Source of the DNA: Pararhodobacter aggregans
GTDB lineage: Bacteria > Pseudomonadota > Alphaproteobacteria > Rhodobacterales > Rhodobacteraceae
Reading direction: 5' to 3'
NCBI RefSeq assembly: GCF_003075525.1
Contig: NZ_QDDR01000010.1
Location: forward strand, 62,001-126,000
Length of the DNA: 64,000 nucleotides
The position numbers and the translations under genes are program-made. The notes under the pieces are model-generated. The model worked only from the letters and a program-made list of their open reading frames with translations. It was not told the DNA's origin and made no database searches. Positions 10,102 through 62,227 of this stretch are shown here, piece after piece; the first letter of the stretch is position 1; every line of letters starts with the position of its first letter.

Positions 10102-11154
10102 ATGACGCGCAAGTCGCCCCTCCAGCCCCCCTCCCTGACCGAGGCCCGCAGCCCGGCCCGCCGTATCACCATGGAGACCGTGGGCCGCATGGCGGGCGTC
10201 AGCCAGGTGACGGTCTCGCGCGCGCTGTCGGACCCCTCCAAGGTCTCGCCCGAGACGCTGAGCCGCATCCAGGAGGCCATCGCCGCCACCGGCTTCGTGC
10301 CGAATGCGCTGGCGGGCGCGCTGGCGTCGAAGAAATCCATGCTGATTTCGGCGCTAGTCCCCTCGATCACCAACATCGTCTATTCCGGCATGCTCGCCAC
10401 CTTCAGCGCCGAATTGCGGGCGCGGGGCTATCAGATCCTGCTGTCCGAAACCGGCTTCGACCGCGAGGACGAGGCGGCGACGGTCGAGGCGCATCTCTCG
10501 CGCCGCCCCGATGCCATGCTGCTGACCGGCGTCCACCATGCCGACCGCACGCGCCGCATGCTGCTGGGTGCGGGCGTCCCGGTGGTCGAGGTCTGGGACA
10601 TCACCGACACGCCGATCGACCTCTGCGTCGGCTTCTCGCACCCCGAGGCCGGGCGGGCGATGGCCGATTACGCCCGCGCCCGGGGCTACCGGCGGGCGGC
10701 CTTCATCACCGCGGGCGACGAACGGGCGCTGCGGCGGGGCGCGGCCTTTGCCGGGCGCTTTGCCCAGGCGGGGGGCGAAGGGCCGGTGCCGATCCGGGGC
10801 GACGCCCCCGCCAGCCTCGCCGGTGGCCGGGCCCTGACCGCGGCGCTGCTGGACGAGGGCTTCGCCGCGAGCGACGGCGCGCTCATCGCCGCCAGCTCGG
10901 ACGTGCTGGCCCAGGGCGCGCTGATCGAACTGGCGGCGCGCGGGCTTGCGGTGCCGGGCCGGGTGGCAGTGATGGGCTTCGGCGATCAGGAGATGGCGGC
11001 CGCGCTCTCGCCGACGCTGACCACGGTGCGGGTCAACCGGGACGCGCTGGGCCGGGCCGCGGCGCAGGCGCTGCTGACGCGGATCGGTGGCACGGCGCCC
11101 GAGCGGCAGGTGATCGACGTGGGCTTCGCGCTGGTCGAACGGCAGTCCGCCTGA
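10102..11154 (+). CDS. LacI-family transcriptional repressor of the sugar-acid operon
   Basis: A 350-residue repressor of the LacI/GntR(gluconate) type. A 20-residue leader precedes the helix-turn-helix ITMETVGRMAGVSQVTVSRAL at about residues 22-42, then the hinge helix PNALAGALAS around 67-76, and a type 1 periplasmic-binding sensor domain to the end. The sensor domain should bind a sugar acid or its keto-deoxy derivative. It is divergent from the dehydratase operon, and three matching palindromes in the gap are its probable operators. The ATG at 10102 has a nearby AAGGA. A perfect palindrome just after its stop probably ends the transcript. Confidence 0.92.
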   Translation: MTRKSPLQPPSLTEARSPARRITMETVGRMAGVSQVTVSRALSDPSKVSPETLSRIQEAIAATGFVPNALAGALASKKSMLISALVPSITNIVYSGMLATFSAELRARGYQILLSETGFDREDEAATVEAHLSRRPDAMLLTGVHHADRTRRMLLGAGVPVVEVWDITDTPIDLCVGFSHPEAGRAMADYARARGYRRAAFITAGDERALRRGAAFAGRFAQAGGEGPVPIRGDAPASLAGGRALTAALLDEGFAASDGALIAASSDVLAQGALIELAARGLAVPGRVAVMGFGDQEMAAALSPTLTTVRVNRDALGRAAAQALLTRIGGTAPERQVIDVGFALVERQSA

Positions 11155-46130: not shown

Positions 46131-46694
46131 TCAGCGCAGGATCGTCTCCTGCCCGTCTGCGAGCCGGATCACCACGCCCTGCGGCGCCTCAAGCCGGTGC
46201 AGCGCGCCACGGTCGAGGCCGCGCAGCAGGCCCCGCATGACGATCAGCACCACCTTGTGGGCGACGACCACAGCGGGGCCGTCGAGGCCGTTCAGGAAAT
46301 CCCGGACCCGGGCCTCGACCCCGGCCAGCCCCTCGCCCCCCGGCGCCTTGTCATAGAGCGCGAGGTCGCTGTCGCAGTCGGCGGCAAGCGCGGGCCAGCC
46401 CGCCGCGCGCTCGGCGGGCGTCAGCCCCTCCCAGGCGCCGCAGGCGATCTCGGTCAGGCGCGGGTCGAGGGTCTGGGCATGGTCCGGCAGCGCGATCCCG
46501 GCGGTCAGCCGCGCGCGCAGCAACGGGCTGACGAAGAGCGGCAGGTCCCGGGTCTCCAGCCGCGCCAGGATCGCCCGCTGTTCCCTCGCCTGTTCAAGGC
46601 CGCGCGGGGTCAGGGGCGAATCCAGACTGCCCTGGATGCGGCCCGCGTGGTTCCATTCGGTCTCGCCATGGCGAAGCAGCAGCAGCGGCGGCAT
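46131..46694 (-). CDS. Histidine phosphatase (phosphoglycerate-mutase-like) family protein
   Basis: A 187-residue protein with the RHGETEWN catalytic motif (His9) at residues 8-15, SLDSPLTPRGLEQA, and a later Glu-rich EIACGAWEG. VVVAHKVVLIVMRGLL has Lys where the second catalytic His-Gly (xHGG) is usual, so activity may be altered. It ends 5 bases from the flavin reductase stop (convergent) and starts 5 bases after the ABC ATPase stop, so it may be the last gene of the importer operon. Confidence 0.88.
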   Translation of the reverse strand: MPPLLLLRHGETEWNHAGRIQGSLDSPLTPRGLEQAREQRAILARLETRDLPLFVSPLLRARLTAGIALPDHAQTLDPRLTEIACGAWEGLTPAERAAGWPALAADCDSDLALYDKAPGGEGLAGVEARVRDFLNGLDGPAVVVAHKVVLIVMRGLLRGLDRGALHRLEAPQGVVIRLADGQETILR

Positions 46695-47791: not shown

Positions 47792-49540
47792 TCACGCGCG
47801 GCCCGCGGTGCGCAATTTCTTGTCCCGTTCGATGATGATCTGCGACAGCACCGTCCCCAGCGCGACGATGACCACCGCCAGCACGCCCAGCGCCGCCCCC
47901 GCCCCGCGCCCCGAGGGCGTCTGCATGAACAGGTAGATGCCATAGGCCAGCGGGCTGTCGCGGTCGTTCGAGACCAGCATGATCGTCGCCGACAGCTCGA
48001 CCGCGGCGGTGGCGAAGCTGGTGACGAAGCCCGCCAGGATCCCCCCCGCCATCAGCGGCACGACGATCCGGCGGATGGTGCGGAACTTGCCCGCGCCGAG
48101 GCTCTCGGCCGCTTCCTCCAGCGCCAGGCTCACCTGTTGCAGCGCCGCCATGCAGGCGCGGAGCGCATAGGGCAGACGGCGGATCATCAGGGCGATGGCG
48201 ATGATGACCCACCAGCTGGCAAGGGGTTTGCCGACCAGCGGCACATCGACGTTCTGGAAGGTCCTGAGATAACCGATGCCCAGCACCACGCCCGGCACCG
48301 CCAGCGCCGCGGTGGCCATGTAATCGAGCCATTTCCGCCCGGCGATGCCGGTCCTGAGCACGATATAGGCGATGGCCGTGCCGATGATGACGTCAAGCGT
48401 CGCGGCGATCCCGGCATAGAGCAGCGTGTTCATCACGTATTGCTGCGAGCCCTCCCACATGCGGACATAATTGGCCAGCGTGTAGCCATCGGGCAGCGGG
48501 GCGAAGGACCAGATCGTACCGAAGGACAGCAGCAGCAGGCCGATATGCGGCGACAGCACGATCAGCAGGATGAAGAGGACGACGCCATAGGCGAGGATCT
48601 TCTCGCGCAGCGCGAGGTCGCGCTTGGCAAGACCCCCGCCGCCCTTCTGCACCGTCGCGTAATCCTTGCCCCGCATCACCAGGAACGAGGCCCAGAGCGA
48701 CAGGATCGAGAAGGCCACGAGAATGACCGAGATCACATAGCCCATCGGGTCGTTCAGCCCGACCGAAGTGATCCTGAGATAAGCCTGCGGCGCCAGCATG
48801 TTGTTGACGTTCAGCAGCAGCGGCGTGCCGAGGTCGTCGAAGACCTTGATGAAGACCAGTGCCGCGCCCGCGACATAGCCCGGTGTCGCCAGCGGAAAGA
48901 CGATGCGGCGGAACAGCCTCAGCCCATGCGCGCCGAGGTTCTGCGCGGCTTCCTCCATCGAGCGGTCGATGTTCCTGAGGCTGGCCGAGAGGTTAATCAG
49001 GATGAAGGGGAAATAATGGATCGACTGCACCAGGATCACCCCGTTCAGCCCCTCCATGAAGGGAATGGTGATCCCGAAATGGTCGCGCAGCAGCAGGTTG
49101 ATCGTGCCATTGCGGCCGAAGATCAGCTGCATGGCCACGGCGCCGACGAAGGGCGGCATGATGAGCGGGATGAAGCCCAGCGACTGGATCAGGATCGAGC
49201 CCGAGAAGTTGAAGCGCGTGGTGATATAGGCCAGCGGCAGCGCGATCACCGTCGCCACGATCACCGACAGCGCCGAGACGTAGAACGAGTTGAAAAAGCT
49301 CTGCCGGAACAGCGACGAATTGAAGAAATCGCCGAAATTCTCCAGCGTCAGGGCCCCGGTCACCGGGTTCTGGAAGGCCACGGCGATGACCTGCAGCACC
49401 GGATAGATCAGGAAGCCCACCAGAATGAGGGCGATGAACAGGCCCACCAGCGCGATCGGGCTCAGCCGGGGGAAGAGGAAGGCAGGAAGCCGGTCGGCAA
49501 GCGACATCGGCCTGCCGGAGGGCTGGGGACCTTGGGTCAT
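47792..49540 (-). CDS. ABC transporter permease, two fused BPD domains (FbpB/PhnU-V type)
   Basis: A 582-residue membrane protein with about twelve helices and two binding-protein-dependent permease domains (roughly residues 60-290 and 340-570). The coupling EAA-like loops are EAAQNLGAHGLRLFRRIVFPLATPG in the first half and EAAESLGAGKFRTIRRIVVPLMAGG in the second. A single fused chain replaces a permease pair. It lies between the binding protein and ATPase genes. Confidence 0.93.
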   Translation of the reverse strand: MTQGPQPSGRPMSLADRLPAFLFPRLSPIALVGLFIALILVGFLIYPVLQVIAVAFQNPVTGALTLENFGDFFNSSLFRQSFFNSFYVSALSVIVATVIALPLAYITTRFNFSGSILIQSLGFIPLIMPPFVGAVAMQLIFGRNGTINLLLRDHFGITIPFMEGLNGVILVQSIHYFPFILINLSASLRNIDRSMEEAAQNLGAHGLRLFRRIVFPLATPGYVAGAALVFIKVFDDLGTPLLLNVNNMLAPQAYLRITSVGLNDPMGYVISVILVAFSILSLWASFLVMRGKDYATVQKGGGGLAKRDLALREKILAYGVVLFILLIVLSPHIGLLLLSFGTIWSFAPLPDGYTLANYVRMWEGSQQYVMNTLLYAGIAATLDVIIGTAIAYIVLRTGIAGRKWLDYMATAALAVPGVVLGIGYLRTFQNVDVPLVGKPLASWWVIIAIALMIRRLPYALRACMAALQQVSLALEEAAESLGAGKFRTIRRIVVPLMAGGILAGFVTSFATAAVELSATIMLVSNDRDSPLAYGIYLFMQTPSGRGAGAALGVLAVVIVALGTVLSQIIIERDKKLRTAGRA

Positions 49541-49650: not shown

Positions 49651-50979
49651 TCACATCGCGGCGGCGCGGTCGGCCAGTTCGCGGGCGCGGGCGTAGTTCT
49701 GGGTCGCGAAGGCGTCCCATTGCTGCTCAAGCTCGGCCTGGCGCTGTTCCACCTGGTCCGAGGCGGCGCGGCGGGTGGCGGTGAAGGCCCCGCTGAAGGC
49801 CGGATCGAGGCTTTGCTCCTCGGTGATCGGCATGGCGTCGATCAGCGCCCGGGCCTCGGCGATCAGCGCCATGGCCTCGGCGTTCGAGCCATCGGCGTGA
49901 CGCTCCTCGGCCAGCTGCACGGCGCGGACCGCGGCGCGCAGATCGTCGAGCCGATAGGTAATCAGCACATCGAAAAGCGAGCTGACCACGTAGTAACGCG
50001 CGCCCGAGGTATCGACGTCGAACAGCACCTCGGCACCGAGCGAGGTATCCTCGAACGGGTTCGGCAGCCCTTCGGGCGCGGCGTCATAGGCGGCCGGGTT
50101 GACCGGCAGACGCATGATCGCCGGATCGAAGAGGGTCTGCTGGCCCGCGGGCGACAGCAGGAACTCGACGAAGGCCCGCGCCCCCTCGGGGTTCGGCGCA
50201 TTCTCGATCACGCCCACGTTGGCCGGGACCAGCGCGGTGACGGTCGGATAGGCGAACTCGACCGGGAAGCCCGAGGCCTGCGAGGAAAAGCCGAAGAAGT
50301 CGATGACGATCCCCAGCCCGAAATTCCCGGTGTTCACCCCGTCCGGAACCCCGAACGAGCGTTCGGTCACACTGGCGAAATTGCCCGCGATCCATTTCCA
50401 TTCGGACCAGCCCGCCTCCCAGCCTTCGCCCTGAAGCACCGTCTCGACGGTCAGATGGGTGGTGCCCGAGCGCGAGGGCGAGGACATGCCGACATGGCCG
50501 TAATATTCGGGCCGCGCCAGATCCGACCATTCCCGCGCCGGTTCCAGCCCGTTGGCGGACAGGTAGCGGGTGTTCCACATGATCCCGTAACCCGAGGCGG
50601 CGAAGCCGTAGTAATAGCCGTCCGGGTCGTTGATCGGATAGGCGCCGATCATGTCCGGGATGCCCTCGGTCGCGATCCCGGCCTGGGCCAGCAGATGGTT
50701 CGACTTCAGCACCTCGAAGGCGTCGGGCGCCGAGGCCCAGAAGATGTCGGCGGTGTTGTTGGCGGCGATCTCCTGCACGTAGCGCACGCCCGACGAGGTG
50801 CTGCGGTTCAGGATCTCCAAGTCGTATTCCGGATGCGCCGCCTCGAACGCGGCCTCGATGACCGAGGTCATGTCATCGGGGAAGGACGTCACGACGACGA
50901 CGCTCCCCTCGGCCCAAGCCATGGATGCGGTGCTGGTCAGAACGAGCGCCGCCGCCGTTCCCTTCAGGATCTTGCGCAT
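49651..50979 (-). CDS. ABC transporter periplasmic binding protein (PgtC/FbpA-like, with C-terminal extension)
   Basis: A 442-residue exported receptor. The signal peptide ends ASMAWA, followed by EGSVVVVTSFPDDMTSVIEAAFEAAHP. SSPSRSGTTHLTVETVLQGEGWEAGW and SFGVPDGVNTGNFGLGIVIDFFGF form the ligand pocket. An extra helical region of about 110 residues follows the usual end, beginning YYVVSSLFDVLITYRLDDLRAAV. The same blocks and extension occur in the sensor protein at 54332-55618. Iron-tyrosine ligands are not obvious; a phosphorylated small molecule is plausible. Confidence 0.92.
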   Translation of the reverse strand: MRKILKGTAAALVLTSTASMAWAEGSVVVVTSFPDDMTSVIEAAFEAAHPEYDLEILNRSTSSGVRYVQEIAANNTADIFWASAPDAFEVLKSNHLLAQAGIATEGIPDMIGAYPINDPDGYYYGFAASGYGIMWNTRYLSANGLEPAREWSDLARPEYYGHVGMSSPSRSGTTHLTVETVLQGEGWEAGWSEWKWIAGNFASVTERSFGVPDGVNTGNFGLGIVIDFFGFSSQASGFPVEFAYPTVTALVPANVGVIENAPNPEGARAFVEFLLSPAGQQTLFDPAIMRLPVNPAAYDAAPEGLPNPFEDTSLGAEVLFDVDTSGARYYVVSSLFDVLITYRLDDLRAAVRAVQLAEERHADGSNAEAMALIAEARALIDAMPITEEQSLDPAFSGAFTATRRAASDQVEQRQAELEQQWDAFATQNYARARELADRAAAM

Positions 50980-50998
50980 GATTTCCCTCCCTATGCGT

Positions 50999-51060
50999 CT
51001 GACGAATGGTCAGCATCGGTAGGCCATGACGAAAATTTGCGCAAACTATTAAAAACGCAA
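50999..51060. promoter_or_regulatory. AT-rich control region upstream of the ABC importer
   Basis: Between the response-regulator stop and the binding-protein start are a perfect palindrome TTTGC-GCAAA (51036-51045), an outer pair TTGCG/CGCAA (51037-51041, 51056-51060), and CTGAC-GAATG-GTCAG (50999-51013). On the minus strand TTGCGC and TACCGA at 17-base spacing give a weak promoter. This is the natural target of the response regulator encoded next door. Confidence 0.45.
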
Positions 51061-51118
51061 GGAAAAATATGGGCTATTGGGTCAGGATCGACACGCCGGA
51101 CGGGTCAGTTCCGACCCG

Positions 51119-52366
51119 TCACGACAGGCCGCAGGCCCGCATCCTGAGGTAAAGCCGCTTGCGCGGGATGCCCAGCGACTCGGCCGCTTCCGCCTTGCGC
51201 CCGCCCGCGCGCCTGAGCGCCGCCAGCAAGAGGTCGGTCTCGAAAAGCCGCATGGCGCTGTCATAATCCTGCGCCTCGTCCGGCGGCTGGGGCCGGTCCT
51301 TGAGCGAGACGCTGAGCCCGATCACCAGCCGTTCGACCACGCTTTTCAGCTCGCGCAGATTGCCGGGCCAGCCATGCGCCCGGAGCTGGCGCAACTCGGC
51401 CGCGGGCACCACCGGGAAGGGGCGGTTGTGGCGCGCCACGGCGTCGCGGACGAAATGCTCGAAGAGGAAATAGAAATCGTCGCCCCGTTCGCGCAGGGGC
51501 GGCACGGCGATCTCGGCCAGGTTCAGCCGCAGGACGATCTCGCGCAGCTGGTCGGCGGCCTCGTCCGGCGTGGCCGAGGCGATGATGCGGCAGCGCCCCT
51601 CGGTCGGCCGGGTGGTCAGGAGCGTCAGCAGGCGCGACAGCATCGGCTCGCCGATCGCCGCCAGCCGGTCGATGAAGAGCGTGCCATTCGCTGCCAGCGC
51701 CATGACCCCGGCCCGGTCGCCACCGCCGCGCATCGTGTCGTCGAAATTGGCCTCGGTCAGGGCCGGGCCGCTGATGGTCACGAAATCGCCCCTGGTCCCG
51801 GCCACGTCGTGGATCACCCGGGCGATGCTCTCGCGTTCGGTCCCGGCCTCGCCGACCAGCAGAACGTCGATGGCGGTATCGGCCACCGCCACCACCTCGC
51901 GCCGCAAGGCCTTTACCGGCTCGGACCGGCCGAGGATCCGGGCGCGGATATCGGTGCCCCGCGCGATCCGGGCCCGCAGGCGCCGGTTCTCCAGCACCAG
52001 CGCCCGCGCGTCGAGCGCGCGCTTGACCGTGGCCCTGAGCAATTCGGGCGGGGCCGGTTTTTCGAGGAAATCGAAGGCCCCGCCACGGGTCGCGGCAACG
52101 GCGGCGGGAATGTCGCCATGGCCGGTAATCAGGACCACCGGCACGTCGGGGGCGGATTTGCGCAGCTCGGCCAGCAGGTCGAGGCCGCTCATCCCCGGCA
52201 TCAGCAGGTCCGAGACGACGACGCCCTCGAATTCGGGATCGAGGCCCCTGAGCAGCGCCTTGCCCGTGTCGAAGCCGCGCGCCTCGAACCCGGCCTTGAC
52301 CAGCATCTCCAGCATCGCGGCCAGGAAATCGGCGTCGTCATCGACCACGAAGACCTGTCTAGCCAT
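51119..52366 (-). CDS. NtrC/DctD-like response regulator with degenerate AAA+ domain (PgtA-like)
   Basis: A 415-residue regulator. The receiver domain (1-118) has the acidic pair DDD (9-11), phospho-acceptor Asp53 in VSDLLMPG and Lys103. The central AAA+ region (about 145-345) is decayed: Walker A reads GEAGTERE (172-179) instead of GETGTGKE, Walker B reads LFIDR (D233, then R where E is needed), and the GAFTGA sigma-54 loop is missing. The C terminus is a Fis-type helix-turn-helix ([22 protein letters not shown]). It must therefore act without sigma-54 ATPase activity, probably on sigma-70 promoters. Overlaps the kinase gene by 8 bases. Confidence 0.92.
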
Positions 52367-54335
52367 GGGTGTCGTCCTCCGCTGCCCGGGGCAGCCGCAG
52401 CGTGGCCACGGCGCCCGGCCCGTCCGCACGCGCGGCGAGGGTCAGATCGCCGCCCATGTCGCGGGCGATGTTGTAGGAAATGGACAGGCCCAGCCCCATG
52501 CCGCGGCCCGCCTGCTTGGTCGAGACGAAGGGCATCATCGCCGCCTCCGGCTCCAGATCGCCCAGCCCGATCCCGGTGTCGCAGACGGCAAGGCGCCAGG
52601 CCTCGGGCTCGGGTTCGGCCGCCACCCGGATGCGGCGGCGCGTGGCGGGGGCCTCGGGGCCCAGATCGACCACCGCGTCGACGGCATTGGTCAGGATGTT
52701 CAGCACCACCTGTTCGGTCAGGATCGGATCGCCCATCACCCGCGCGCCCTTGAGCGAGGGGTCGAGGTCCAGCGCGATCCCCGCCTCGCGCAGCCGTGGC
52801 TCCAGCAGACGCGCCGGGTTGCCGACAAGGTCGTCCAGCGCCAGCGCCGTCGGCTCGAACCGGCCGCGCCGGGCAAAGCGGCGCAGGTGCTGGACGATGC
52901 GCTGGATGCGCTCGGACAGCGCCGTCACCAGCTCGGCCTGCCGCGTCACCTCGGGCAGATCGCCCGCCCCGGCCGCGTCGCTGAGCAGGCTCATGCGGTA
53001 GCTGATGGCGCCGAGGGGCTGGTTGATCTCGTGGCTGATGCCCGCCGACAGCGCACCCAGCGCCGCCATCTTGCCCGCCTGCACCAGCTCGTCCTGGGTG
53101 CGGCGCAGGGTCTCGATGGCCGCATCGCGGGCGGCGATGGCGCGCTGGAATTCGCCCACCGCAAAGGACAGCCGCTCCAGATCGTCGCCGCCCCGGGGCC
53201 CGGCCTCGGCCTCGGCGGTGGCCATCAGCCGCTCGGTCAGCGACCTGAGCGGCACCACGATCCGGGTGCGGATCAGCCGGTCGATGCCCAGCGCGCCCAG
53301 CCCCACGACCAGCGCCGTGCCCCCCACCAGCCAGAAGGTCATGGTCCTGATCTGCTCGGCCGAGGCCTCGATCCGGGCCAGCACCGCCTCGCGCTCGGTG
53401 TTGGACAGATCGCCCAGCCGGGTCTGGATCGCGTCGATCTCGGCCAGCGTGGCGGTGATCGCCTGATAGGCGCGGTCGCGGGCCTCGATCCAGCGGCGGC
53501 GGTGGTCGATGACCGAACCCTCGCCGGCAAAGAGCGCGAAGAGCCGGTCGATGGACTGGCGCAAGGTCACCAGTTCCGGCGCCTCGGGCAGGGCCGAGAG
53601 GCGCTCGTTCAGCCGGGCGCGGAAATCGTGCAGCAGCGTCTCCAGCTGGGTGACCCGCTCGGCATCCTCGGCCACCGCGCCCTGCACGACCAGCGTCATC
53701 GCCACCGCCGCATCCGAGCCGATCTCGGCGAAGATGTCGCGTTCCTCGCGCTCGGCGCCGATGCTGGCGGCGAGCGCGGCCCGGGCGGCCGGGTCCCCGG
53801 CCTGCCAGAGTTCCAGCATCCGCGCGGCGATGTTGTAGTCGAAATCGCGCAGGACCGGCTCCACCTCATCCTGGATATCGACGTTGAGCCAGCGCAGGGC
53901 CTCGACCTGCGCGTCAAGGCGGGCGCCGAGGTCGCGCTGCGCCTCGGCCGCCAGCAACACCTCGGCGAGCGTCGCACCCAGCCCGCCCTGGCCGATGGGA
54001 TTGACCGCCTCGGCCCCCGATCCGGCGGCGGCGAGGCTGGCGCGGATCGCGTCGCCGATGCTGCGCGTCTCGGCGACGAAAGCGTCCTCGCCGGTCTGGC
54101 CGGACAGAACCGAGGTGGCAAGCCCCGCCAGATCCGCCGAATGGCGCGAGAGTTCGCCGACCAGCAGCAGCCGCGGCACCTCGGTATCGACCAGCGCCCG
54201 GTAATTCTGCTGCGCCCCCCAGAGGAGATAGATCGCCGCCGCCAGATTGGCCCAGAGGATGAAGACGATCAGCCCGACCAGCAGCAGAAGCCGCCGCCAG
54301 ACGCTGCGGCCGGATCGGGACGCGCGGCGGCTCAT
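52359..54335 (-). CDS. Membrane sensor histidine kinase (PgtB/TorS-like)
   Basis: A 658-residue kinase. Helices at about 15-38 and 332-352 bracket a large, helical periplasmic domain of about 290 residues. A HAMP-like linker follows, then HisKA with the phospho-acceptor His435 in [15 protein letters not shown]. The ATPase domain has [10 protein letters not shown] (N box), CDTGIGLGD (G1) and [11 protein letters not shown] (G2). The all-helical periplasmic part resembles sensors that contact a periplasmic binding protein, which fits the gene upstream. It overlaps that gene by four bases and the regulator by eight. Confidence 0.92.
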
Positions 54336-55618
54336 GGCGCCCGCCCTTCCAGCGCGCTCAGCGCGCCGTCGACCGCGGCCAGCTGCCCGGCGATGCGGTC
54401 GTCCCAGTTGCGGATCAGGGCCCGTTGGGCGGCGGGCAGGTCGGTCAGCTCCATCACCCGGCTCACCGCCGGGCCGCGGTCGAGGTTCAGCACCTCGCTT
54501 TCGCTGACCGGCAGGCGCGAGAGCTGCCGGGCCAGCAGGTCCAGCGCATGCGCATCGCCCCGCCCGCGCAGGGCCTCGAGCCGTGACCAGAGCAGACGGC
54601 GGGTCTCCAGCCGGTCGGTGATCGCCAGATCGAAGAGCACGTTCACCGCCCAGAACCGGTCCGAGGCGAGGCCCGCGTTGTAATCGAGCCAGCGCGAGCG
54701 CAGCGCGGTGGTGATCTCGGGCGGGATCAGCGCGCCCGCCGCCTCGCGCACCGGGGCCGAGGCGGGGATTCGGCCGATGCCGGGGGTCAGCATCAGCCGC
54801 TGTCCCTCGTCCCCCGTCACCAGCGTCAGGAAATCGCAGCCCATGCCCGGGTCCCCCGCCCCGGCCAGAACGCCGATCTGCGCCGGGAACAGCACGGCGG
54901 GCGTGCCGTAGTGGAACATCAGTTCGGGTTGCGAGGACCCGGCGAGGAAGTCGATGGTCAGCCCGATGTCGAACCGCCCGCTGCGCACCCCGTCGGTCAC
55001 CGCGAAGCTGCGCGAGGTGACGGTGGCGAGGTTGCGCGCCAGCCGCAGCAGGAAACCCCAGCCGTCGTTCCAGCCCCGCACCTGCAGGAACCGCTCGACC
55101 AGCATATGCGAGGTGCCCGAGCGCGAGGGCGGGGCCATGCCGATCTGCCCCTCGTAGCGCCGGTCAAGCAGCTCTTCCCAGGTCCGCGGCACCCGCTGGC
55201 CGCCGTCGCGGCGCAGGGTCCAGCCGATCGAGGAGATGGCGAAGGGCGCATAGCCCGCCTGCCCCGCCGCCGCGCAGGTGCCGCCCCCCGCGAAACGGCC
55301 GTCGCGGGACAGGATCTCGAACGCCTCGGGCGAGGAGGCGAAAAACACGTCGAAGGCCCGGGCATTGCCGCGCAAAAGCTCCTCGACCGCGGCGACGGTG
55401 TTCTTGTTGAGGACCAGCACCTCGGTCCCGGGGTGATGGGCGCGGAAGGCCTCGACCAGCGGCGCGGTGGTGGCGGGGGGCAGCGAGGTGAGGATGCGCA
55501 GCACCTCGGCCCCGGCGGGCGGGGCGGCGAGGGCCAGAAGCGCGGCGCCCAGTCCCGCAAGGCGCAGCCGGAACCGGGGCCACGCCCGGCGCGGCTGCAC
55601 TCTGTTGATGCGGGCCAT
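54332..55618 (-). CDS. Periplasmic binding protein acting as sensor partner (PgtC-like)
   Basis: A 428-residue exported protein. A basic leader and hydrophobic core end APPAGA, then [81 protein letters not shown] and the extension [20 protein letters not shown] align block by block with the transporter receptor at 49651-50979. Lying in one operon with kinase and regulator, and without permease genes, it most likely binds ligand and triggers the kinase, as proposed for PgtC in phosphoglycerate uptake. Start chosen at ATG 55618; the frame is open to 55747 but lacks a better start. Confidence 0.9.
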
Positions 55619-55789
55619 CCTCCCTGCCCTCCTGCCTGCTGCGCCCCAACCGGCGCGGTCCCGTCCGGGACGCGGCAGGGGCCTCCTCTGCCCCCGTCGC
55701 ACCGCCACGGGATCTTGTCCTTTCCCGACCCGGCGTGGATAGCGCAAAGGCCCGCGGGGAGGCCAAGGAAAGCAGCGCGGCGGGGAAAC

Positions 55790-55805
55790 GTGTCAGTTTT
55801 GACAC
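55790..55805. promoter_or_regulatory. Perfect inverted repeat upstream of the three-component operon
   Basis: GTGTCA-GTTT-TGACAC is an exact 6-bp inverted repeat with a four-base gap, about 170 bases upstream of the sensor-protein start and 18 bases past the M24 peptidase stop. It could be a regulator site or a small hairpin; its position favours a site in the operon promoter. Confidence 0.5.
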
Positions 55806-55823
55806 GCACCCCGCCGCCCCGGG

Positions 55824-56915
55824 TCAGAGGTCCAGCATCCGCGGCAGGCCGCTCAGCACCTCCGCCCCGTCCTTGCGCAGCACCACGATATCCTCCAGCC
55901 GGACGCCGAACTCGCCGGTCAGATAGATCCCGGGCTCGATGGAGAAGACATTGCCCTCCTCCAGCACGCTGTCCGAGGTGGCGGTGATATAGGGCGTCTC
56001 GTGCACATCCATGCCCAGCCCGTGGCCGGTGCGGTGGACGAAACGCGGCCCGTAGCCCGCGGCCTCGATCACGCCGCGCGCGGCGCGGTCGACCTCACGC
56101 GCGATGGCGCCCGGCTTGGCCGCCGCCAGCGCCGCCTGCACCGCGGCCTCGACCGTCTCGCGGACCTTCTTGTACTCGGCCGGCTCCTCGCCGAACCAGA
56201 AACTGCGCGTCATGTCCGAGGGATAGCCGCCGATCCGGCAGCCGGTGTCGATCAGCACCGCCATGTTGTCCTGCAGCACCGTGTCGCCGGTGTGGTGGTG
56301 CGGGAAGGCGCCGTTGGCACCGAAGCCGATGATGGTGAATTCGGCCGCCGCGCCATGGGCCTTGTAATAGTCGCGGATGATCGCCTGCAGCTCCAGCTCG
56401 GTCATGCCCGCGCGCAGCCGGGTCATGGCATGGCGCACCGCGTCGTCGTTGAGCCGGGCGCAGGCGATCAGCGCCTCGGTCTCGGCCGCGTCCTTGCGGG
56501 CGCGCAGCCGGCCGATGGTGTCGGCGGTATAACGGCGTTTCGGCGCCTCCAGCGCATCCAGCACCATCAGCGCGAAATCGGCGCGCATCGTCTCGTCCAG
56601 CACGATGGACAGACCCGGGCGCCCGGCGTCGCATTTGTCCAACAGAGCGGCCAGCGCGGCGGCGGGCCCTTCGGCATCGGCCCATTCATGGAACGGCAGA
56701 CCGGTATGCTGGCGGGCCATGTCGGCGTTGAGCGCGGGCATCAGGAAGCCTGCGTAATCCTTGGCGACGATGACCAGCACCGGGCGCTCGTCGCCATGCG
56801 GATCGACGCCGGTCAGATAGACCATGCTGGTCGAGGGGCCGAGGACCACGAGGTCGGTGGCGGTTTCGGCCATCACCGCGCGCAGGGCGGCAAGGCGGGT
56901 TTCGTGGATCCCCAT
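55824..56915 (-). CDS. M24-family metallopeptidase (Xaa-Pro dipeptidase/aminopeptidase P-like)
   Basis: A 363-residue pita-bread-fold enzyme, cytosolic. The N-terminal creatinase-like domain runs to about residue 130. Metal ligands in the C-terminal domain are seen in DTGCRIGGYPSDMTRSF (two Asp), HRTGHGLGMDVHE (His), FSIEPGIY (Glu) and VRLEDIVVL (Glu). It is the last gene of the operon with an XRE-cupin regulator and a peptide-binding protein, so a dipeptidase for imported peptides fits best. Ectoine hydrolase and DddP are related M24 proteins and remain alternatives. Start ATG 56915 has GGAGG five bases upstream. Confidence 0.9.
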   Translation of the reverse strand: MGIHETRLAALRAVMAETATDLVVLGPSTSMVYLTGVDPHGDERPVLVIVAKDYAGFLMPALNADMARQHTGLPFHEWADAEGPAAALAALLDKCDAGRPGLSIVLDETMRADFALMVLDALEAPKRRYTADTIGRLRARKDAAETEALIACARLNDDAVRHAMTRLRAGMTELELQAIIRDYYKAHGAAAEFTIIGFGANGAFPHHHTGDTVLQDNMAVLIDTGCRIGGYPSDMTRSFWFGEEPAEYKKVRETVEAAVQAALAAAKPGAIAREVDRAARGVIEAAGYGPRFVHRTGHGLGMDVHETPYITATSDSVLEEGNVFSIEPGIYLTGEFGVRLEDIVVLRKDGAEVLSGLPRMLDL

Positions 56916-56937
56916 CGGGACCTCCGTCCTAAGTGTG

Positions 56938-56968
56938 AAAAGGGCCGCCCGCATCTGGCGGACGGCCC
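56938..56968 (-). terminator. Terminator-like hairpin between the peptide-binding protein and M24 genes
   Basis: On the minus strand GGGCCGTCCGC and GCGGGCGGCCC pair over 11 bp (one G-T) with a five-base loop, followed by TTTT. It sits 25 bases past the binding-protein stop and just upstream of the M24 ribosome binding site, so it probably attenuates rather than fully ends transcription. Confidence 0.7.
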
Positions 56969-56993
56969 GTTCTTGGTCAGGCCTGAACCTGGA

Positions 56994-58589
56994 TCACTCG
57001 GCCTTCTCGACTAGACGGTAATAGACGAAATCCGAGGTCGCGCCGTTCACATAGCCCGAGACCCGGTTCGACATCGCCACCTGATAGGACGCCTGGAACA
57101 TGATGACGATGGGGCTTTCGGCCTGCACCTGACGCTGCAGGTCCAGATACATCTCCTCGCGCCGCGCCGGGTCGGCCTCGGTCAGGGCGGCCATCGTCTC
57201 GGCGTTCATCTCGGCCGGAACCGCCCAGGAATTGCGCCAGGTCGTGGTGGCGGCATAGGCATCCTGCGCGTTGTTCGAGTTATAGGCGAAGGCCTTGGCG
57301 TTGGAATGCGGGTCCATGAAGTCCGGGCCCCAATAGAGCAGCATCGCCTGATGGCTGCGCTCGCGGTAGCGGGTGATGACCTGGCTGCCGGTGCCGGGCA
57401 GGATCTCGAAATTGATCCCGGCAGGCGCGAAGGACGCCTGCAGCGATTGCGCCATATCGGTGAAGGGGGCTGCGTTGATGACGTCGAGCGTCACGGTGAT
57501 CGGCAGTTCCACGCCCGCATCGGCCAGGATCTGCTCGGCCCGGGCCGGGTCATAGGTGAAGGGCGTGTCGTTCAGCGCGCCCGGGAAGCCGTTCGGCCAG
57601 AAGGCCTGATGGACTTCCATCTGACCGGCGAGGAAGCTGTCCACCATGCCTTGATAATTCACGAGGTAACGCGCGGCTTCCCAGACGGCGGGGTTGGTCA
57701 GTTGCGCGTCGGCCTGGTTGAAGGACAGGAAGTGGACGGCGGCCTGCGGGAAGGTCTCGACGCTGAGGGCGTCGGTATCCAGCCCGGCGATCTGGTCGGC
57801 GGTCAGGTTGCGCGCCAGATCGACGTCGCCCTGTTCCAGCAGCAGCTGCTGGGTGGCCGATTCCGCGACATGGCGGATGATGACGCCATCAATCGCCGGG
57901 GCGCCGTTGAAGTAGTTTTCGTTGGCCTCAAGCCGGATCATCTCGGCCGGGCGGAACATCCGCAGCGAGAAGGGGCCCGAGCCCGCCGAATTGGCGTTCA
58001 GCCAGGCGTTGCCCATGTCGCCGTCGACCTCATTGGCCATGACGGTTTCCGCGTCGACGATCGAGGCCGGGCGCGCGGCCAGCACGTTCATCACGAAGGC
58101 GGGCGAGAAATCGCCGGCGTAGCGGATGGTGACACTGTTGCCCTCGCCCGCCGTGACCATCTGGTCCACGTTCTCGGGCGTCCAGCCGAGCTGGGTCAGG
58201 ATGAAGGCGGGCGTGAGGTTCAGCTTGACCACCCGGGACAGCGAGAAGACCACATCCTCGGGCCGCACCGGGTTGCCGGAATGGAAGGTCGCGCCATCCC
58301 GCAGGGTGAAGGTGATGGTCTTGCCCTCGGCGTCGATCTCCCAGCTTTCGGCCAGGCCCGGCGCCAGCACACTGGTGTCGGCGGCGTCGTATTGCACGAG
58401 GCGGTCGTAGACATTGGTGACCAGCTCGCCCGAGGTGAATTCATAGGCCTGGGCCGGGTCGATGGCGACGATGTCGTCGATGTTCTGGGCCACGACCAGC
58501 ACGTCGGCGGGCGTGTCGGCAAGCACGGGCAGCGTGCTCAGCGGCATCGCCAGCACGGCGGCCAGGATGGCAGGGCGAAGGATGGACAT
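56994..58589 (-). CDS. Peptide/nickel-type ABC transporter substrate-binding protein (SBP family 5, DppA-like)
   Basis: A 531-residue exported receptor. The signal peptide ends LPVLA, then DTPADVLVVAQNIDDIVAIDPAQAYEFTSGE. AESWEIDAEGKTITFTLRDGATFHSGNPVRPEDVVFSL is the hallmark of family 5 proteins. WGPDFMDPHSNAKAFAYNS near the C terminus is the usual ligand-loop region. Its permease and ATPase partners are the divergent genes 59404-62979. It lies 24 bases downstream of the XRE-cupin gene. Confidence 0.93.
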   Translation of the reverse strand: MSILRPAILAAVLAMPLSTLPVLADTPADVLVVAQNIDDIVAIDPAQAYEFTSGELVTNVYDRLVQYDAADTSVLAPGLAESWEIDAEGKTITFTLRDGATFHSGNPVRPEDVVFSLSRVVKLNLTPAFILTQLGWTPENVDQMVTAGEGNSVTIRYAGDFSPAFVMNVLAARPASIVDAETVMANEVDGDMGNAWLNANSAGSGPFSLRMFRPAEMIRLEANENYFNGAPAIDGVIIRHVAESATQQLLLEQGDVDLARNLTADQIAGLDTDALSVETFPQAAVHFLSFNQADAQLTNPAVWEAARYLVNYQGMVDSFLAGQMEVHQAFWPNGFPGALNDTPFTYDPARAEQILADAGVELPITVTLDVINAAPFTDMAQSLQASFAPAGINFEILPGTGSQVITRYRERSHQAMLLYWGPDFMDPHSNAKAFAYNSNNAQDAYAATTTWRNSWAVPAEMNAETMAALTEADPARREEMYLDLQRQVQAESPIVIMFQASYQVAMSNRVSGYVNGATSDFVYYRLVEKAE

Positions 58590-58613
58590 GGCAGTCTTTC
58601 TCCGTGTTGGGGG

Positions 58614-59243
58614 TCAGGTTTCGAGATTGGCCGGCAGCATCTCGGGGATGATGTCCGGCAGGTGGGTCTTGGGCCGGCTGCCCAGGACCGAAAGCGTCCC
58701 GGTCCACAACAGCCGCGCGGGCCGTCCCGTCCGGTTGGCCCAGGCATGCGGCGTCGAGCCGCTGTAATGCAGGCTGTCGCCCTCGCGCAGGATGAAGGTC
58801 TCGTCGCCCAGCGTCTGGACGACCTCGCCCTCCAGCACGAAGAGGATCTCCTCGCCCTCATGCGCCACGGTTTCCGAGACGAAGCCGGGCGGCACATGCA
58901 GCAGGTAGGACGAGAGTTCCGAACCCGGGAAGGGCGTGGCCAGCGCCTCGTAGCCCATGGTCGAGCCATCGACCGAGAATTGCGCCCGCTGCCCGGCCCG
59001 GGTCAGCGCATCCGAAGGGCGCGAGCCGCCGACGAAATGCTCGAGCCCCAGGTCCAGCCCGTCGGCGATCTGCGCCATGGTGCCCAGGGACGGCGAGGCA
59101 AGGCCGCGCTCCACCTGGCTCAGGAACCCCGGCGAGAGCCCGGCGCGGTCGCAGAGCTGCTGCAAGGTCAGGCCCAATTGCTTGCGCCGCCGCCGGATGC
59201 GGGTGCCGAGATTGGGGTCGGTCTGGGGCTTCGGTCTGGCCAT
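58614..59243 (-). CDS. XRE-family regulator with C-terminal cupin domain
   Basis: A 209-residue regulator. The helix-turn-helix lies at about residues 14-68 (LTLQQLCDRAGLSPGFLSQVERGLASPSL). The cupin_2 domain lies at about residues 110-185 (LHVPPGFVSETVAHEGEEILFVLEGEV, GDSLHYSGSTPHAWAN) with His and Glu residues that may bind metal or ligand. Such PuuR-like proteins repress amine, amino-acid or peptide uptake genes. The palindrome in the divergent promoter region is its likely operator. Confidence 0.92.
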   Translation of the reverse strand: MARPKPQTDPNLGTRIRRRRKQLGLTLQQLCDRAGLSPGFLSQVERGLASPSLGTMAQIADGLDLGLEHFVGGSRPSDALTRAGQRAQFSVDGSTMGYEALATPFPGSELSSYLLHVPPGFVSETVAHEGEEILFVLEGEVVQTLGDETFILREGDSLHYSGSTPHAWANRTGRPARLLWTGTLSVLGSRPKTHLPDIIPEMLPANLET

Positions 59244-59271
59244 CTCTGCGGGGGCGCCGCGCTCCGGTTTG

Positions 59272-59314
59272 TCAAAATTTTTTTGATCTAACCAAACTTT
59301 TTTGTTACAGCCAA
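59272..59314. promoter_or_regulatory. Overlapping divergent promoters with palindromic operator
   Basis: Minus strand: TTGGCT (59314-59309) and TTAGAT (59291-59286), 17-base spacing, toward the XRE gene. Plus strand: TTGATC (59283-59288) and TACAGC (59306-59311), 17-base spacing, toward the permease genes. The palindrome TCAAAA-TTT-TTTTGA (59272-59286) covers the minus-strand start site and plus-strand -35, so one bound repressor could silence both directions. Confidence 0.6.
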
Positions 59315-59403
59315 GAAAATTGTTGCCGTGATCGGCAGCAGAACGCCGCTTTTCCCTGCCGCCCGGGCGCCTGTCCGGCGGGCGCTTTCCTTGCAGGAGT
59401 CCC

Positions 59404-60486
59404 ATGAGCACAGACGTCGAATCCGGCGCGATTTCCGGCCCTCCGGCGCCCGTCCGGCGCGGAGGGCGCCGCTTCGCGGGCCTGCGCAGGCTGGCCGAAT
59501 TCCTGGTGATTCTCGCCTTCACCTTCCTCGGGCTTCTGGCCATCACCTTTTTCATCGGCCGGGTGATCCCCATCGACCCGGTGCTCTCGGTCGTGGGCGA
59601 CCGCGCCACTACCGCGCAATACGAGGCCGCGCGGATCGCCATGGGCCTAGACCAGCCGCTGCCGGTGCAATTCGTGCATTATGTCGGCGACGTGTTCTCG
59701 GGCGATCTGGGCCGTTCGGTTTCCACCAACCGGCCGGTGGCCGATGACCTCGCCCGAGTCTTCCCGGCCACGCTGGAGATGGCGACGATCGGCATCGTCA
59801 TCGGCGTCCTGCTGGGCGTGCCGCTGGGCGTGCTGTCGGCGGTGAAACGGGGCAGGCTCATCGACCAGCTGATCCGCATCTTCGCGCTGCTGGGCTATTC
59901 GGTGCCCGCCTTCTGGCTGGGCCTCGTTGGGCTCGCGCTCTTCTACGCCGGGCTGGGCTGGGTCGGCGGGCCGGGGCGGGTCGATATCTTCTATGACGGG
60001 CTGGTCGATCCGGTGACGGGCCTTCTGCTGGTCGACAGCCTGATCGCGGGCGATCTGGACGTCTTCTTCTCGGCGCTCGATCACATCATCCTGCCCGCCA
60101 CGATCCTCGGCTTCTTCTCGCTGGCCTATATCGCCCGGATGACGCGCTCCTTCATGCTGGACCAGCTGGGGCAGGAATATGTGACGACCGCCCGGGTCAA
60201 GGGCGTGCCGGAATGGAAGGTGATCTGGGTCCATGCTTTCGGCACCATCCGCGTGCCGCTGATTACCGTGATCGGGCTTTCCTACGCCGCCCTGCTGGAA
60301 GGCTCGGTGATGATCGAGACGGTGTTCAGCTGGCCCGGCATCGGCAATTACCTGACCACCGCGCTGTTCAACGCCGACATGAACGCGGTGTTGGGCGCGA
60401 CGCTGGTCATCGGGACGGTCTTCATCCTGATAAACAAGCTGTCCGACGTCCTTTACCGCATCCTCGATCCCCGGAGCCGTACATGA
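59404..60486 (+). CDS. Peptide-type ABC transporter permease (DppB-like)
   Basis: A 360-residue membrane protein with about six helices. A hydrophilic 40-residue N terminus precedes the first helix (LVILAFTFLGLLAITFFIGRVIP). The EAA-like coupling loop is VTTARVKGVPEWKVIWVHAFGTIRVPLITVIG, and GSVMIETVFSWPGIG is the family motif. GCAGGAGT precedes ATG 59404. First of five tightly overlapping genes. Confidence 0.94.
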   Translation: MSTDVESGAISGPPAPVRRGGRRFAGLRRLAEFLVILAFTFLGLLAITFFIGRVIPIDPVLSVVGDRATTAQYEAARIAMGLDQPLPVQFVHYVGDVFSGDLGRSVSTNRPVADDLARVFPATLEMATIGIVIGVLLGVPLGVLSAVKRGRLIDQLIRIFALLGYSVPAFWLGLVGLALFYAGLGWVGGPGRVDIFYDGLVDPVTGLLLVDSLIAGDLDVFFSALDHIILPATILGFFSLAYIARMTRSFMLDQLGQEYVTTARVKGVPEWKVIWVHAFGTIRVPLITVIGLSYAALLEGSVMIETVFSWPGIGNYLTTALFNADMNAVLGATLVIGTVFILINKLSDVLYRILDPRSRT

Positions 60487-61400
60487 GCCCCAAAACCACG
60501 GGTCTGTCTGCCTGGCTGACCGACGACGCCCCCGCCTCGCGCGCGCAGGCCAATCTGGGCCGCGCCTATGACATCTTCCGCCGCCTGTGCCGCAACCCGC
60601 TGGCGGCGCTGGGGATGGCGATCCTGCTGGTGCTGGTGATCTGCGCCGCCTTCGCCCCCTGGATCGCGCCCTATTCGCCGATCGGTCAGGACCTGCCGAA
60701 CCGGCTGCTACCGCCGTCCGCCGCGCATTGGATGGGCACCGACGAACTGGGCCGCGACATCTTTTCCCGCGTGGTGCATGGGGCGCGGCTGACGCTGCTG
60801 ATCGTCGGGCTGGTCGCGGTGATCTCGGCCCCCGTGGGTCTGATCCTCGGCGCGGTGTCGGGGTATTTCGGCGGCTGGGTGGACCGGATCCTGATGGGGA
60901 TCACCGATATCTTCCTGTCGCTGCCCAAACTGATCCTCGCGCTGGCCTTCGTCGCCGCGCTGGGTCCGGGGATCGAGAACGCGATCATCGCCATCGCCAT
61001 CACCGCCTGGCCGCCCTATGCCCGCCTTGCCCGGGCCGAGACGCTGACCTTCCGCGCCGCCGAATTCGTGCAGGCGGCGCGGCTGGCGGGGGGCAGCCAT
61101 GCGCGGGTCATCGGGCTGCATATCCTGCCCTTGTGCACCTCCTCCACCATCATCCGGGTGACGCTCGACATGGCCGGGATCATCCTGACCGCCGCGGGGC
61201 TCGGCTTCCTCGGCCTCGGCGCGCAGCCGCCCCTGCCGGAATGGGGCGCGATGATCTCGCGCGGGCGGGCCTTCATCCTCGATCAATGGTGGGTCGCGAC
61301 CATGCCGGGCTTTGCCATCATCGTCGTCTCGCTGGGCTTTTGCTTCCTCGGCGACGGGCTGCGCGACGTGCTGGATCCGAAGAGCGGGGACAAGGCATGA
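60483..61400 (+). CDS. Peptide-type ABC transporter permease (DppC-like)
   Basis: A 305-residue membrane protein. It has the DppC-type N-terminal helix (NPLAALGMAILLVLVICAAFAPWIAPYSP), MGTDELGRDIFSRVVHGAR and EAA-loop VQAARLAGGSHARVIGLHILP. GLGFLGLGAQPPLPEWGAMI is the standard C-terminal motif. The start overlaps the dppB-like stop (ATGA). Confidence 0.94.
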   Translation: MSPKTTGLSAWLTDDAPASRAQANLGRAYDIFRRLCRNPLAALGMAILLVLVICAAFAPWIAPYSPIGQDLPNRLLPPSAAHWMGTDELGRDIFSRVVHGARLTLLIVGLVAVISAPVGLILGAVSGYFGGWVDRILMGITDIFLSLPKLILALAFVAALGPGIENAIIAIAITAWPPYARLARAETLTFRAAEFVQAARLAGGSHARVIGLHILPLCTSSTIIRVTLDMAGIILTAAGLGFLGLGAQPPLPEWGAMISRGRAFILDQWWVATMPGFAIIVVSLGFCFLGDGLRDVLDPKSGDKA

Positions 61401-62227
61401 GCCTGCTGGACATCCAAAACCTCACCGTCACCTTCCCGACGCCCCGGGGCCCGGTCAACGTGGTCGATGGCGTCTCGCTGACGCTGGGCCAGGAACGGCT
61501 GGGCATCGTCGGCGAATCGGGCTCGGGCAAGTCGATGACCGGGCGCGCGATCCTGGGGCTGGTGCGCCCGCCGGGCGTGGTGAAAGCCGACCGCATGGCG
61601 TTCGAGGGGCAGGAATTGCAGGGCCTCTCGGACCGCGCCATGCGCAAGATCCGGGGTGCCCGGATCTCGATGGTCATGCAGGATCCGAAGTTCAGCCTCA
61701 ACCCGGTGATGACCGTGGGCCGCCAGATCGAGGAGGCGCTGCGCACCCACGAAAGCCTGCCCCGCCGGGCGCTGAAGGCCCGCGTGGCCGAGATGCTGGA
61801 GGCCGTGCGCATCCATGACCCCGAGCGGGTGATGGACCTTTACCCGCACGAGGTCTCGGGCGGGATGGGCCAGCGCATCATGATCGCCATGATGCTGATC
61901 CCCCGCCCCCGGATCCTGATCGCCGACGAGCCGACCTCGGCCCTGGATGTCAGCGTGCAGGGGCAGGTGCTGGACCTGATCGACGAGCTGGTGCGCGAGA
62001 ACGGGATGGGCCTGATGCTGGTCAGTCACGACCTGCATCTGGTCGGCCGCTATTGCGACCGGGTGATGGTGATGAACGCGGGCCGCGTGGTCGAGGTGCT
62101 GGACGCGAAGAACCTGCACGCGGCCCAGCACCCCTATACGAAGGGCCTGCTGGCCGCCGTCCCCCGGATGAACGAAACGCGCGCCGAGCTGCCCACGCTC
62201 GACCGCTCGCAATGGGCTTCGACATGA
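61397..62227 (+). CDS. Peptide-type ABC transporter ATP-binding protein (DppD-like)
   Basis: A 276-residue ATPase. Walker A GESGSGKS, Q-loop MVMQDPKFSLNP, signature VSGGMGQRIMIAMML, Walker B ILIADEPTSALD and H-loop LMLVSHDL are intact. The signature has GMGQR where GMRQR is usual. The C-terminal iron-sulfur/oligopeptide extension is shortened compared with typical DppD (about 330 residues). Overlaps by ATGA on both sides. Confidence 0.93.
   Translation: MSLLDIQNLTVTFPTPRGPVNVVDGVSLTLGQERLGIVGESGSGKSMTGRAILGLVRPPGVVKADRMAFEGQELQGLSDRAMRKIRGARISMVMQDPKFSLNPVMTVGRQIEEALRTHESLPRRALKARVAEMLEAVRIHDPERVMDLYPHEVSGGMGQRIMIAMMLIPRPRILIADEPTSALDVSVQGQVLDLIDELVRENGMGLMLVSHDLHLVGRYCDRVMVMNAGRVVEVLDAKNLHAAQHPYTKGLLAAVPRMNETRAELPTLDRSQWAST

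Follow-up and report, generated by a model that had tools for sequence, protein, structure and literature searches.

PgtCBA-PgtP is a phosphoglycerate sensing and uptake system of Salmonella and E. coli. A substrate-binding protein (SBP), PgtC, a kinase, PgtB, and an NtrC-type response regulator, PgtA, are encoded in one operon beside the transporter PgtP, an antiporter of the major facilitator superfamily (MFS), and the system has no importer receptor. In excerpts of the literature, PgtC is described as a sensor of 3-phosphoglycerate (PMC11077982) and PgtP as importing phosphoglycerates and phosphoenolpyruvate (PEP) (PMC10715179). A related block of genes lies in a stretch of 64,000 nucleotides from Pararhodobacter aggregans (contig NZ_QDDR01000010.1, positions 62,001 to 126,000), which is called the window below. 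Here the transporter is an ATP-binding cassette (ABC) importer with a receptor related to the sensor receptor, accompanied by a phosphatase gene, and comparison of the sequences makes it probable that the block encodes a PgtCBA-type three-component sensor that controls the ABC importer in place of PgtP.

Several other systems resemble this arrangement in part. The proteins of CuaDSR and CuaABC belong to other families, and XylFII-LytS, which is linked to XylFGH and YesN, concerns xylose and other classes of SBP and kinase. According to PMC10384115, the cuaDSR operon of Ruminiclostridium cellulolyticum encodes an SBP, a kinase and a regulator that control an operon for an SBP, permeases and an enzyme (CuaABC-CbpA); the substrate is cellobiose and cuaDSR is described as constitutive, whereas in the window a predicted operator also precedes the sensor operon. 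In XylFII-LytS, a sensor SBP presents its ligand to a kinase beside an ABC importer (PMC9769921, in excerpt). In HptASR-UhpT of Staphylococcus aureus, a secreted SBP binds a phosphate ester, glucose-6-phosphate, and signals to a kinase; the target is an antiporter, and the passages of PMC8774646 consulted do not mention an ABC importer partner. AfuABC has the same fold family, the same receptor-permease-ATPase layout and a phosphate ester cargo (PMC4546632, in excerpt), and differs in its 321-residue receptor chain, which lacks the C-terminal extension found here, and in its pocket residues. With CuaDSR/CuaABC as precedent (PMC10384115), a sensor SBP combined with an ABC importer is a known design; the present combination and its switch of promoter class appear to be new, and literature searches over titles and abstract starts of open-licence papers found no Pgt-type trio driving an ABC importer.

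The sensor trio and the importer

All genes of the block are on the minus strand in the order SBP2, kinase, regulator, SBP1, permease, ATPase and histidine phosphatase. SBP2 (54332-55618) is a PgtC-type periplasmic sensor receptor with a signal peptide recognized by eye and, in a fair structure model, an SBP fold followed by a C-terminal helical extension; its gene overlaps that of the kinase at 54332-54335. The PgtB-type histidine kinase (52359-54335) features two membrane helices and a long periplasmic domain, both identified by eye, followed by HisKA (with His435) and HATPase domains. The PgtA-type (NtrC-type) response regulator (51119-52366) consists of a receiver, a degenerate AAA+ domain without GAFTGA and a Fis-type helix-turn-helix. 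SBP1 (49651-50979), the importer receptor, belongs to a group distinct from SBP2 and PgtC and carries the same C-terminal extension as SBP2. The importer is completed by a fused double permease with two BPD_transp_1 stretches (47792-49540) and an ABC ATPase with a TOBE_2 domain (46699 to about 47769, start codon inferred), and the gene that is often seventh of the block encodes a histidine-phosphatase family protein (46131-46694). The sequence-only reading of this DNA had described two receptors with three blocks in common, one with a permease and ATPase and the other with a kinase and regulator; both open reading frames and all of these genes are present. SBP1 and SBP2 are identical at 129 of 401 positions (32%, E 1e-50, BLASTP), in an alignment that spans the C-terminal part. 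The common blocks include PSRSGT(T/S)H...GW..GW, followed by a block that reads SFGVPDGVNTGNFGLGIVIDF in one receptor, and all three quoted blocks were found. A third receptor copy was not detected in the 5.08 Mb genome at E <= 1e-5.

SBP2 matches occur in 29 of 295 sampled genomes of the same family (E <= 1e-10). Strong matches (E <= 4.3e-81) are confined to seven, each with a second receptor 4.5-4.8 kb away, and the other 22 have weak matches only (best E 3.5e-16), to shorter receptors. The six-gene block for which the earlier reading had suggested a survey is found in 7/295 family genomes, and gene maps give an identical order in the six besides the window (the L046 ATPase is cut by a contig end). 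A search for related loci returned five. Two add the block (L003, and L006, which is cut in SBP1), two (L004 and L005) are contigs of the surveyed genomes of L041 and L042, and the fifth, L007, matches weakly and lacks the block. When sampling was widened to the phylum (398 genomes) and the class (385 genomes, overlapping with the former), three more genomes proved to carry both receptors (G485, G383 and G946), so that SBP1 is present in 10/10 surveyed alphaproteobacterial genomes with SBP2 (seven from the family sample and three from the phylum and class samples). The 15 positives of the class sample comprise two genomes with both receptors, 12 with an importer and one receptor but no kinase match in the stretch examined, and one lone receptor; among gammaproteobacteria, 9/274 genomes are positive, with three importer-only loci, one of the PgtC type and five lone receptors. 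These whole-genome searches score few candidates per genome and can miss some. SBP2-like matches also turned up in plasmid records, among them those of Paracoccus, Maritalea, Chelatococcus, Azospirillum, Ensifer, Shinella and Aminobacter, and stretches of five such records were examined. Paracoccus denitrificans PD1222 carries the block at PDEN_RS23175-23205. In Aminobacter (L093), the trio of SBP2, kinase and regulator is 11 kb from the importer, with an ectoine cluster between them. The trio-bearing loci are divided into clade A, with ten loci (the window, L003, L006, L041-L046 and L090), and clade B, with six (L077, L078 and L091-L094, which include Hyphomicrobiales and Azospirillum) and later also L117.

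Comparison with the Pgt proteins used E. coli strain C8 (L095) and two other gammaproteobacteria (L086 and L087) in which the trio faces a PgtP-like gene, recognized as MFS by eye. E. coli pgtA was located via a distant-search match of about 100 bp that served for locating only. The best NCBIfam models for the kinase and the regulator are PgtB (149 bits against a cut-off of 1000) and PgtA (242 bits against a cut-off of 650). Profile alignments of the kinase periplasmic domains with hhalign relate clade A (8 sequences) to PgtB (3 sequences) with a probability of 87% (E 3.7e-6), clade A to clade B (3 sequences) with 98.9%, and clade B to PgtB with 97%, against 0.12% in a reversed control. The kinases of clade B L077, L078, L094 and L117 lie outside these profiles, as do those of L044 and L045, whose frames are broken by an in-frame stop and by a split between frames, respectively, through either decay or sequence errors. 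Together with the receptor tree described below, these comparisons identify the kinase, regulator and SBP2 as homologues of PgtB, PgtA and PgtC. The earlier reading had named PgtCBA-PgtP as the nearest parallel; the difference in transporter stands, but the relationship is more than a parallel since the sensor genes are homologous.

Predicted operators before the importer and sensor operons

Three operator sites are predicted on the minus strand of the window. Two precede SBP1, site 1 at 51100-51119 (ACGGGTCGGAACTGACCCGT, read in the gap between the regulator and SBP1 as GGGTCGGAACTGACCC) and site 2 at 51077-51096 (GTGTCGATCCTGACCC), 23 bp from site 1. The third precedes SBP2 at 55788-55807 (GCGTGTCAAAACTGACACGT, also given as GTGTCAAAACTGACAC), and its position makes autoregulation likely. 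The pattern GNGTCNNAACTGACNC has exactly two matches in the 5.08 Mb genome, at the SBP1 and SBP2 promoters, with 13 more at one mismatch. The 23-bp tandem occurs once in the genome, with no second occurrence at one mismatch and none in the backwards control.

By inspection and matrix, a site is found before SBP1 in 17/17 trio-bearing loci read, and a pair in 16/17. Inspection of clade A gives a pair at 23 bp before SBP1 in 10/10 loci, and a site before SBP2 in 7/10 (the window and six of its nine near relatives). The pair in the six clade B loci consists of GTT(A/C)CC followed by a TGACCC-like half with a period of 32-34 bp. A tandem regular expression derived from clade A was tried on distant loci and set aside; its single hit lay in L084 and not at the importer promoter, and it was too strict because it missed even the P. 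denitrificans pair. Clade B loci have a different left half-site (GTTACC) and the longer period. With a matrix made from seven clade A loci, excluding the window, L003 and L041, the three sites of the window are the top three places in 64 kb (25.7, 23.7 and 20.9; next 13.2). Leave-one-out scans of the seven other clade A loci and the six clade B loci always place an operator at the top. L117, which was added after the matrices were made, has a clade A-type site that is the best of 20 kb (19.1; next 14.7). In Aminobacter, where 11 kb separate the importer from the regulator gene, it is the importer that has the pair, with scores of 30.0 and 24.7 (the next place in 37 kb scores 13.4). The importer-only loci (L079-L084 and L118-L130) provide the comparison, and 0/19 reach the lowest training score within 400 bp upstream, where the start codons of some loci among L117-L130 are approximate; their maxima are 11.8 against 17.5 for matrix A and 6.3 against 18.0 for matrix B.

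In 3/3 gammaproteobacterial loci, the highest score of the clade A matrix over 16-20 kb also falls in the pgtC-pgtP gap. The E. coli strain C8 gap contains ATGTGTCACAATTGACACAA (L095:4249-4268), which scores 20.7 and is the best of 16 kb, with the next separate place at 12.6; this is a predicted PgtA operator. The L087 gap scores 19.3, with the next separate place at 11.4. The L086 gap is weak, with 12.6 and 12.0 at two places and 9.5 for the next outside (the PgtP start was taken at 10813). One predicted operator would serve the pgt and importer systems alike, and an enteric phosphoglycerate sensor would be joined with an ABC importer that is found across Alpha- and Gammaproteobacteria.

The homology of the parts, the conserved gene order and the conserved sites that accompany the importer in the presence of the trio ground this interpretation. 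In the proposed mechanism, SBP2 would bind a small phosphorylated acid in the periplasm for presentation to the kinase's periplasmic domain, and the kinase would phosphorylate the PgtA-like regulator. The regulator would then bind both GTC-N5-TGAC palindromes of the tandem, which lie 98-140 bp ahead of the SBP1 start, and the one ahead of SBP2, and would switch on its own operon and that of SBP1, permease, ATPase and cytoplasmic phosphatase, with SBP1 bringing the same ligand class to the importer. Binding of the sites by the regulator, the ligand, the contact between SBP2 and the kinase, activation and a sigma-70-type promoter in clade A are inferred parts of this scheme. The earlier reading had proposed a self-contained uptake circuit with one receptor for each branch, and the presence of predicted operators before the importer in 17/17 trio loci against 0/19 importer-only loci speaks in its favor.

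Some results weigh against this scheme. A strict motif finds both copies in 7/10 clade A loci, a single copy in each of two (L042 and L046) and neither in L043, and the departing copies in clade A were chosen by position. The second copy scores near background in L044, L091 and L078 in the leave-one-out scans, and L117 has a single site and no pair. The site before SBP2 is missing in 3/10 clade A loci, and the matrix gives none at that place in clade B. Single GKGTCN5TGACMC sites occur at six other places in the genome, against five matches in the backwards control, so the regulon may extend beyond the block. Additionally, the kinase is only 21% identical overall to E. coli PgtB, the SBP2 rows alone form an unsupported group (54/23) in the receptor tree, and the candidate ligand comes from alignment and gene neighbors.

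Receptor ancestry and promoter class

The receptor tree contains 60 rows, including 16 shorter outgroup receptors and the three PgtC rows. Every receptor with a C-terminal extension falls into one group (100/100) that is separate from the shorter receptors. The SBP1 rows group with one other receptor, from L085, at 99/98, while on their own they are unsupported (38/9). SBP2 and PgtC group at 95/85, although the PgtC rows are long branches and their placement is unsure, and clade A SBP2 (100/100), clade B SBP2 (84/80) and PgtC (100/99) leave one open fork. A tree with PgtC had been proposed in the sequence-only reading, and in the best tree both receptors fall into one extended group with PgtC, in different subgroups of it, SBP2 with PgtC and SBP1 apart. 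The L085 receptor (L085:7866-9293) lies between genes that by eye encode a hybrid histidine kinase and an adenylate-cyclase-type protein.

The sequence-only reading had also traced the sensor input to the duplication of a receptor at this locus. That the two genes are close neighbors, are 32% identical and have motifs and the extension in common fits a recent local duplication, in which the importer receptor was copied in this lineage and the copy became the kinase input. A Rhodobacterales-only clade of both receptors is, however, rejected under the model used (log-likelihood 143.5 lower; approximately unbiased (AU) test p 3.6e-51), and the SBP1 and SBP2 rows stay separate across alphaproteobacterial orders, which makes this origin very improbable. 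Since SBP2 also sits with PgtC and not with its neighbor, SBP1 and SBP2 reflect, on the tree, an old split inside the PgtC-type receptor family and not a local copy; the direction from receptor to sensor is left as a candidate only. An older duplication may have given the importer and sensor receptors after PgtC had branched off, so that the importer pairing would be original and PgtP the swap. The AU test does not reject a grouping of SBP1 and SBP2 with L085 that leaves PgtC outside (log-likelihood 1.57 lower, p 0.316), and importers without a nearby trio are the commoner in the class sample (12/15 positives), but the best tree unites SBP2 with PgtC, long branches included, and this history is considered possible though rather unlikely. 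SBP1 might also serve the kinase, much as BctC serves BctE, so that the importer receptor signals too. It shares its extension and pocket motif with SBP2; however, the extension is kept in 19 importer-only loci without a kinase match in the stretch examined, so it has no need of this kinase, and the kinase gene is overlapped by SBP2 and not by SBP1. A signaling role of SBP1 is considered improbable.

The regulators and promoters of the trio-bearing loci fall into two classes. All clade B regulators contain GAFTGA (7/7, including L117), and a -24/-12 element is found at 7/7 of their promoters, with 9 or 10 of 10 positions matched, including GG and GC, at a distance of about 59-75 bp upstream of the SBP1 start. 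At least 9 of 10 positions were needed for such a call; ten of 2000 random 200-bp pieces of the window reach 9 and none reaches 10. GAFTGA is absent from the clade A regulators (0/10) and no clade A promoter reaches 9 (0/10; L046 reaches 8). The three PgtA proteins also lack GAFTGA, and their pgtP promoters lack a -24/-12 element, which speaks against sigma-54 for PgtA. No importer-only promoter reaches 9 (0/19), with L079, L083, L123 and L124 at 8/10. The window regulator lacks both the GAFTGA loop and the Walker A Lys. This Lys is also gone (GEAGTERES) in the nearest relatives of the window and is retained in more distant clade A members, a pattern that indicates step-wise decay of the AAA+ domain in clade A.

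In the regulator tree, which is unrooted and has one outside row, clade A regulators and PgtA form separate groups, each at 100/100. The outside row, one of seven other regulators of the window's genome (L136), also lacks the exact GAFTGA string. As GAFTGA is general in the NtrC family, its loss on two occasions, in clade A and in PgtA, is the simplest reading of this unrooted tree. In a broader interpretation, which is judged to be evenly poised between right and wrong, an old sensor module kept its operator, was coupled to an ABC importer and to an MFS antiporter, and lost sigma-54 activation at least twice (in the window clade and in PgtA), each time with the -24/-12 element of its target. 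If this is true, the published reading of PgtA acting via sigma-54 would be wrong, and the loci would form a natural series in which an enhancer-type activator becomes an ordinary one. The paired loss of GAFTGA and the sigma-54 promoter would additionally offer a route to test how a regulator swaps its RNA polymerase partner while its site is kept.

Cargo, receptor extension and neighboring genes

The candidate pocket motif is common to SBP1, SBP2 and PgtC. In SBP1 numbering, Arg170 is present in 39/41 rows of these receptors (the exceptions are L046 SBP2 and L087 PgtC) and Arg207-Ser208 in 41/41, while both are found in 0/16 outgroup receptors and 0/3 other extended receptors. A histidine phosphatase follows the ATPase in 11/14 trio-bearing loci (ten by motif and L090 by annotation; not L044, L077 or L078) and in 0/19 importer-only loci; the count omits L006, L046 and L093, where the sequence ends too early. 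Motifs of the HAD type downstream of the ATPase are equally rare with the trio (2/14) and without it (2/19). A phosphoglycolate-phosphatase gene adjoins the block in Azospirillum, where it passes the NCBI cut-off, and in Chelatococcus, by annotation. The cargo would be a phosphorylated carboxylate, with phosphoglycerate, PEP or phosphoglycolate as candidates at about even odds. Importers now annotated as carriers of iron or phosphonates may in some cases transport phosphorylated acids.

Hexose phosphate, 2-aminoethylphosphonate or iron would be alternative cargoes. The solved folds nearest to the SBP1 model are AfuA and VcA0625, which bind glucose-6-phosphate, with iron-binding proteins close behind, and the best NCBIfam models are PhnS2 for SBP1 and PhnT2 for the ATPase, with PhnU2 second for the permease. 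Membership of PhnS2 (TIGR03261) was rejected, as SBP1 reaches 95.2 bits and SBP2 41.7 against a cut-off of 392.75. An AfuA-type hexose-phosphate receptor was likewise rejected. The essential residues of AfuA are His205, Asp206 and Glu229 in the part of PMC4546632 consulted, and in the alignment SBP1 has Ile226-Asp227 at the His/Asp place, if the His-Asp of the chain is the 205/206 pair of the paper; Glu229 was not placed. The pocket motif is that of PgtC and is absent from the outgroup, and these other cargoes are regarded as rather unlikely.

The structure models are only fair (mean pLDDT, the predicted local distance difference test score, of 71.1 and 64.2), and the fold search was done with the SBP1 model only. 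Residues 322-441 of this model are mostly helical and parts of them are among the best predicted, with weak stretches at 312-326 and 396-408. The extension was considered as a mark of the sensor and rejected because importer-only receptors carry it. SBP1 is 438-447 residues long in L079-L084, and in the importer-only genomes of the class and gammaproteobacterial samples the matches reach positions 403-416 of the 421-position profile. By these comparisons the C-terminal extension belongs to the receptor family as a whole.

Extended receptors also occur in other surroundings. Five gammaproteobacterial loci (L131-L135) encode one and show no match to an importer, a kinase or PgtP in the stretch examined. 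Extended PgtC-like receptors at L088:9068-10327 and L089:10211-11530 lie near genes that by eye are TonB-receptor-like and heme-cytochrome-like, with no match to an ABC importer or trio in the stretches examined, and they perhaps represent a third use of the receptor family. In the window, the peptidase M24 and SBP_bac_5 genes upstream of the block (55824-58589) were considered and dropped as members of the system; they flank the block in L003 and have no match in L041 or L042. They are part of a peptide-transport-like cluster that adjoins the block (55824-62000), in which divergent permeases and an ATPase were additionally recognized by eye.

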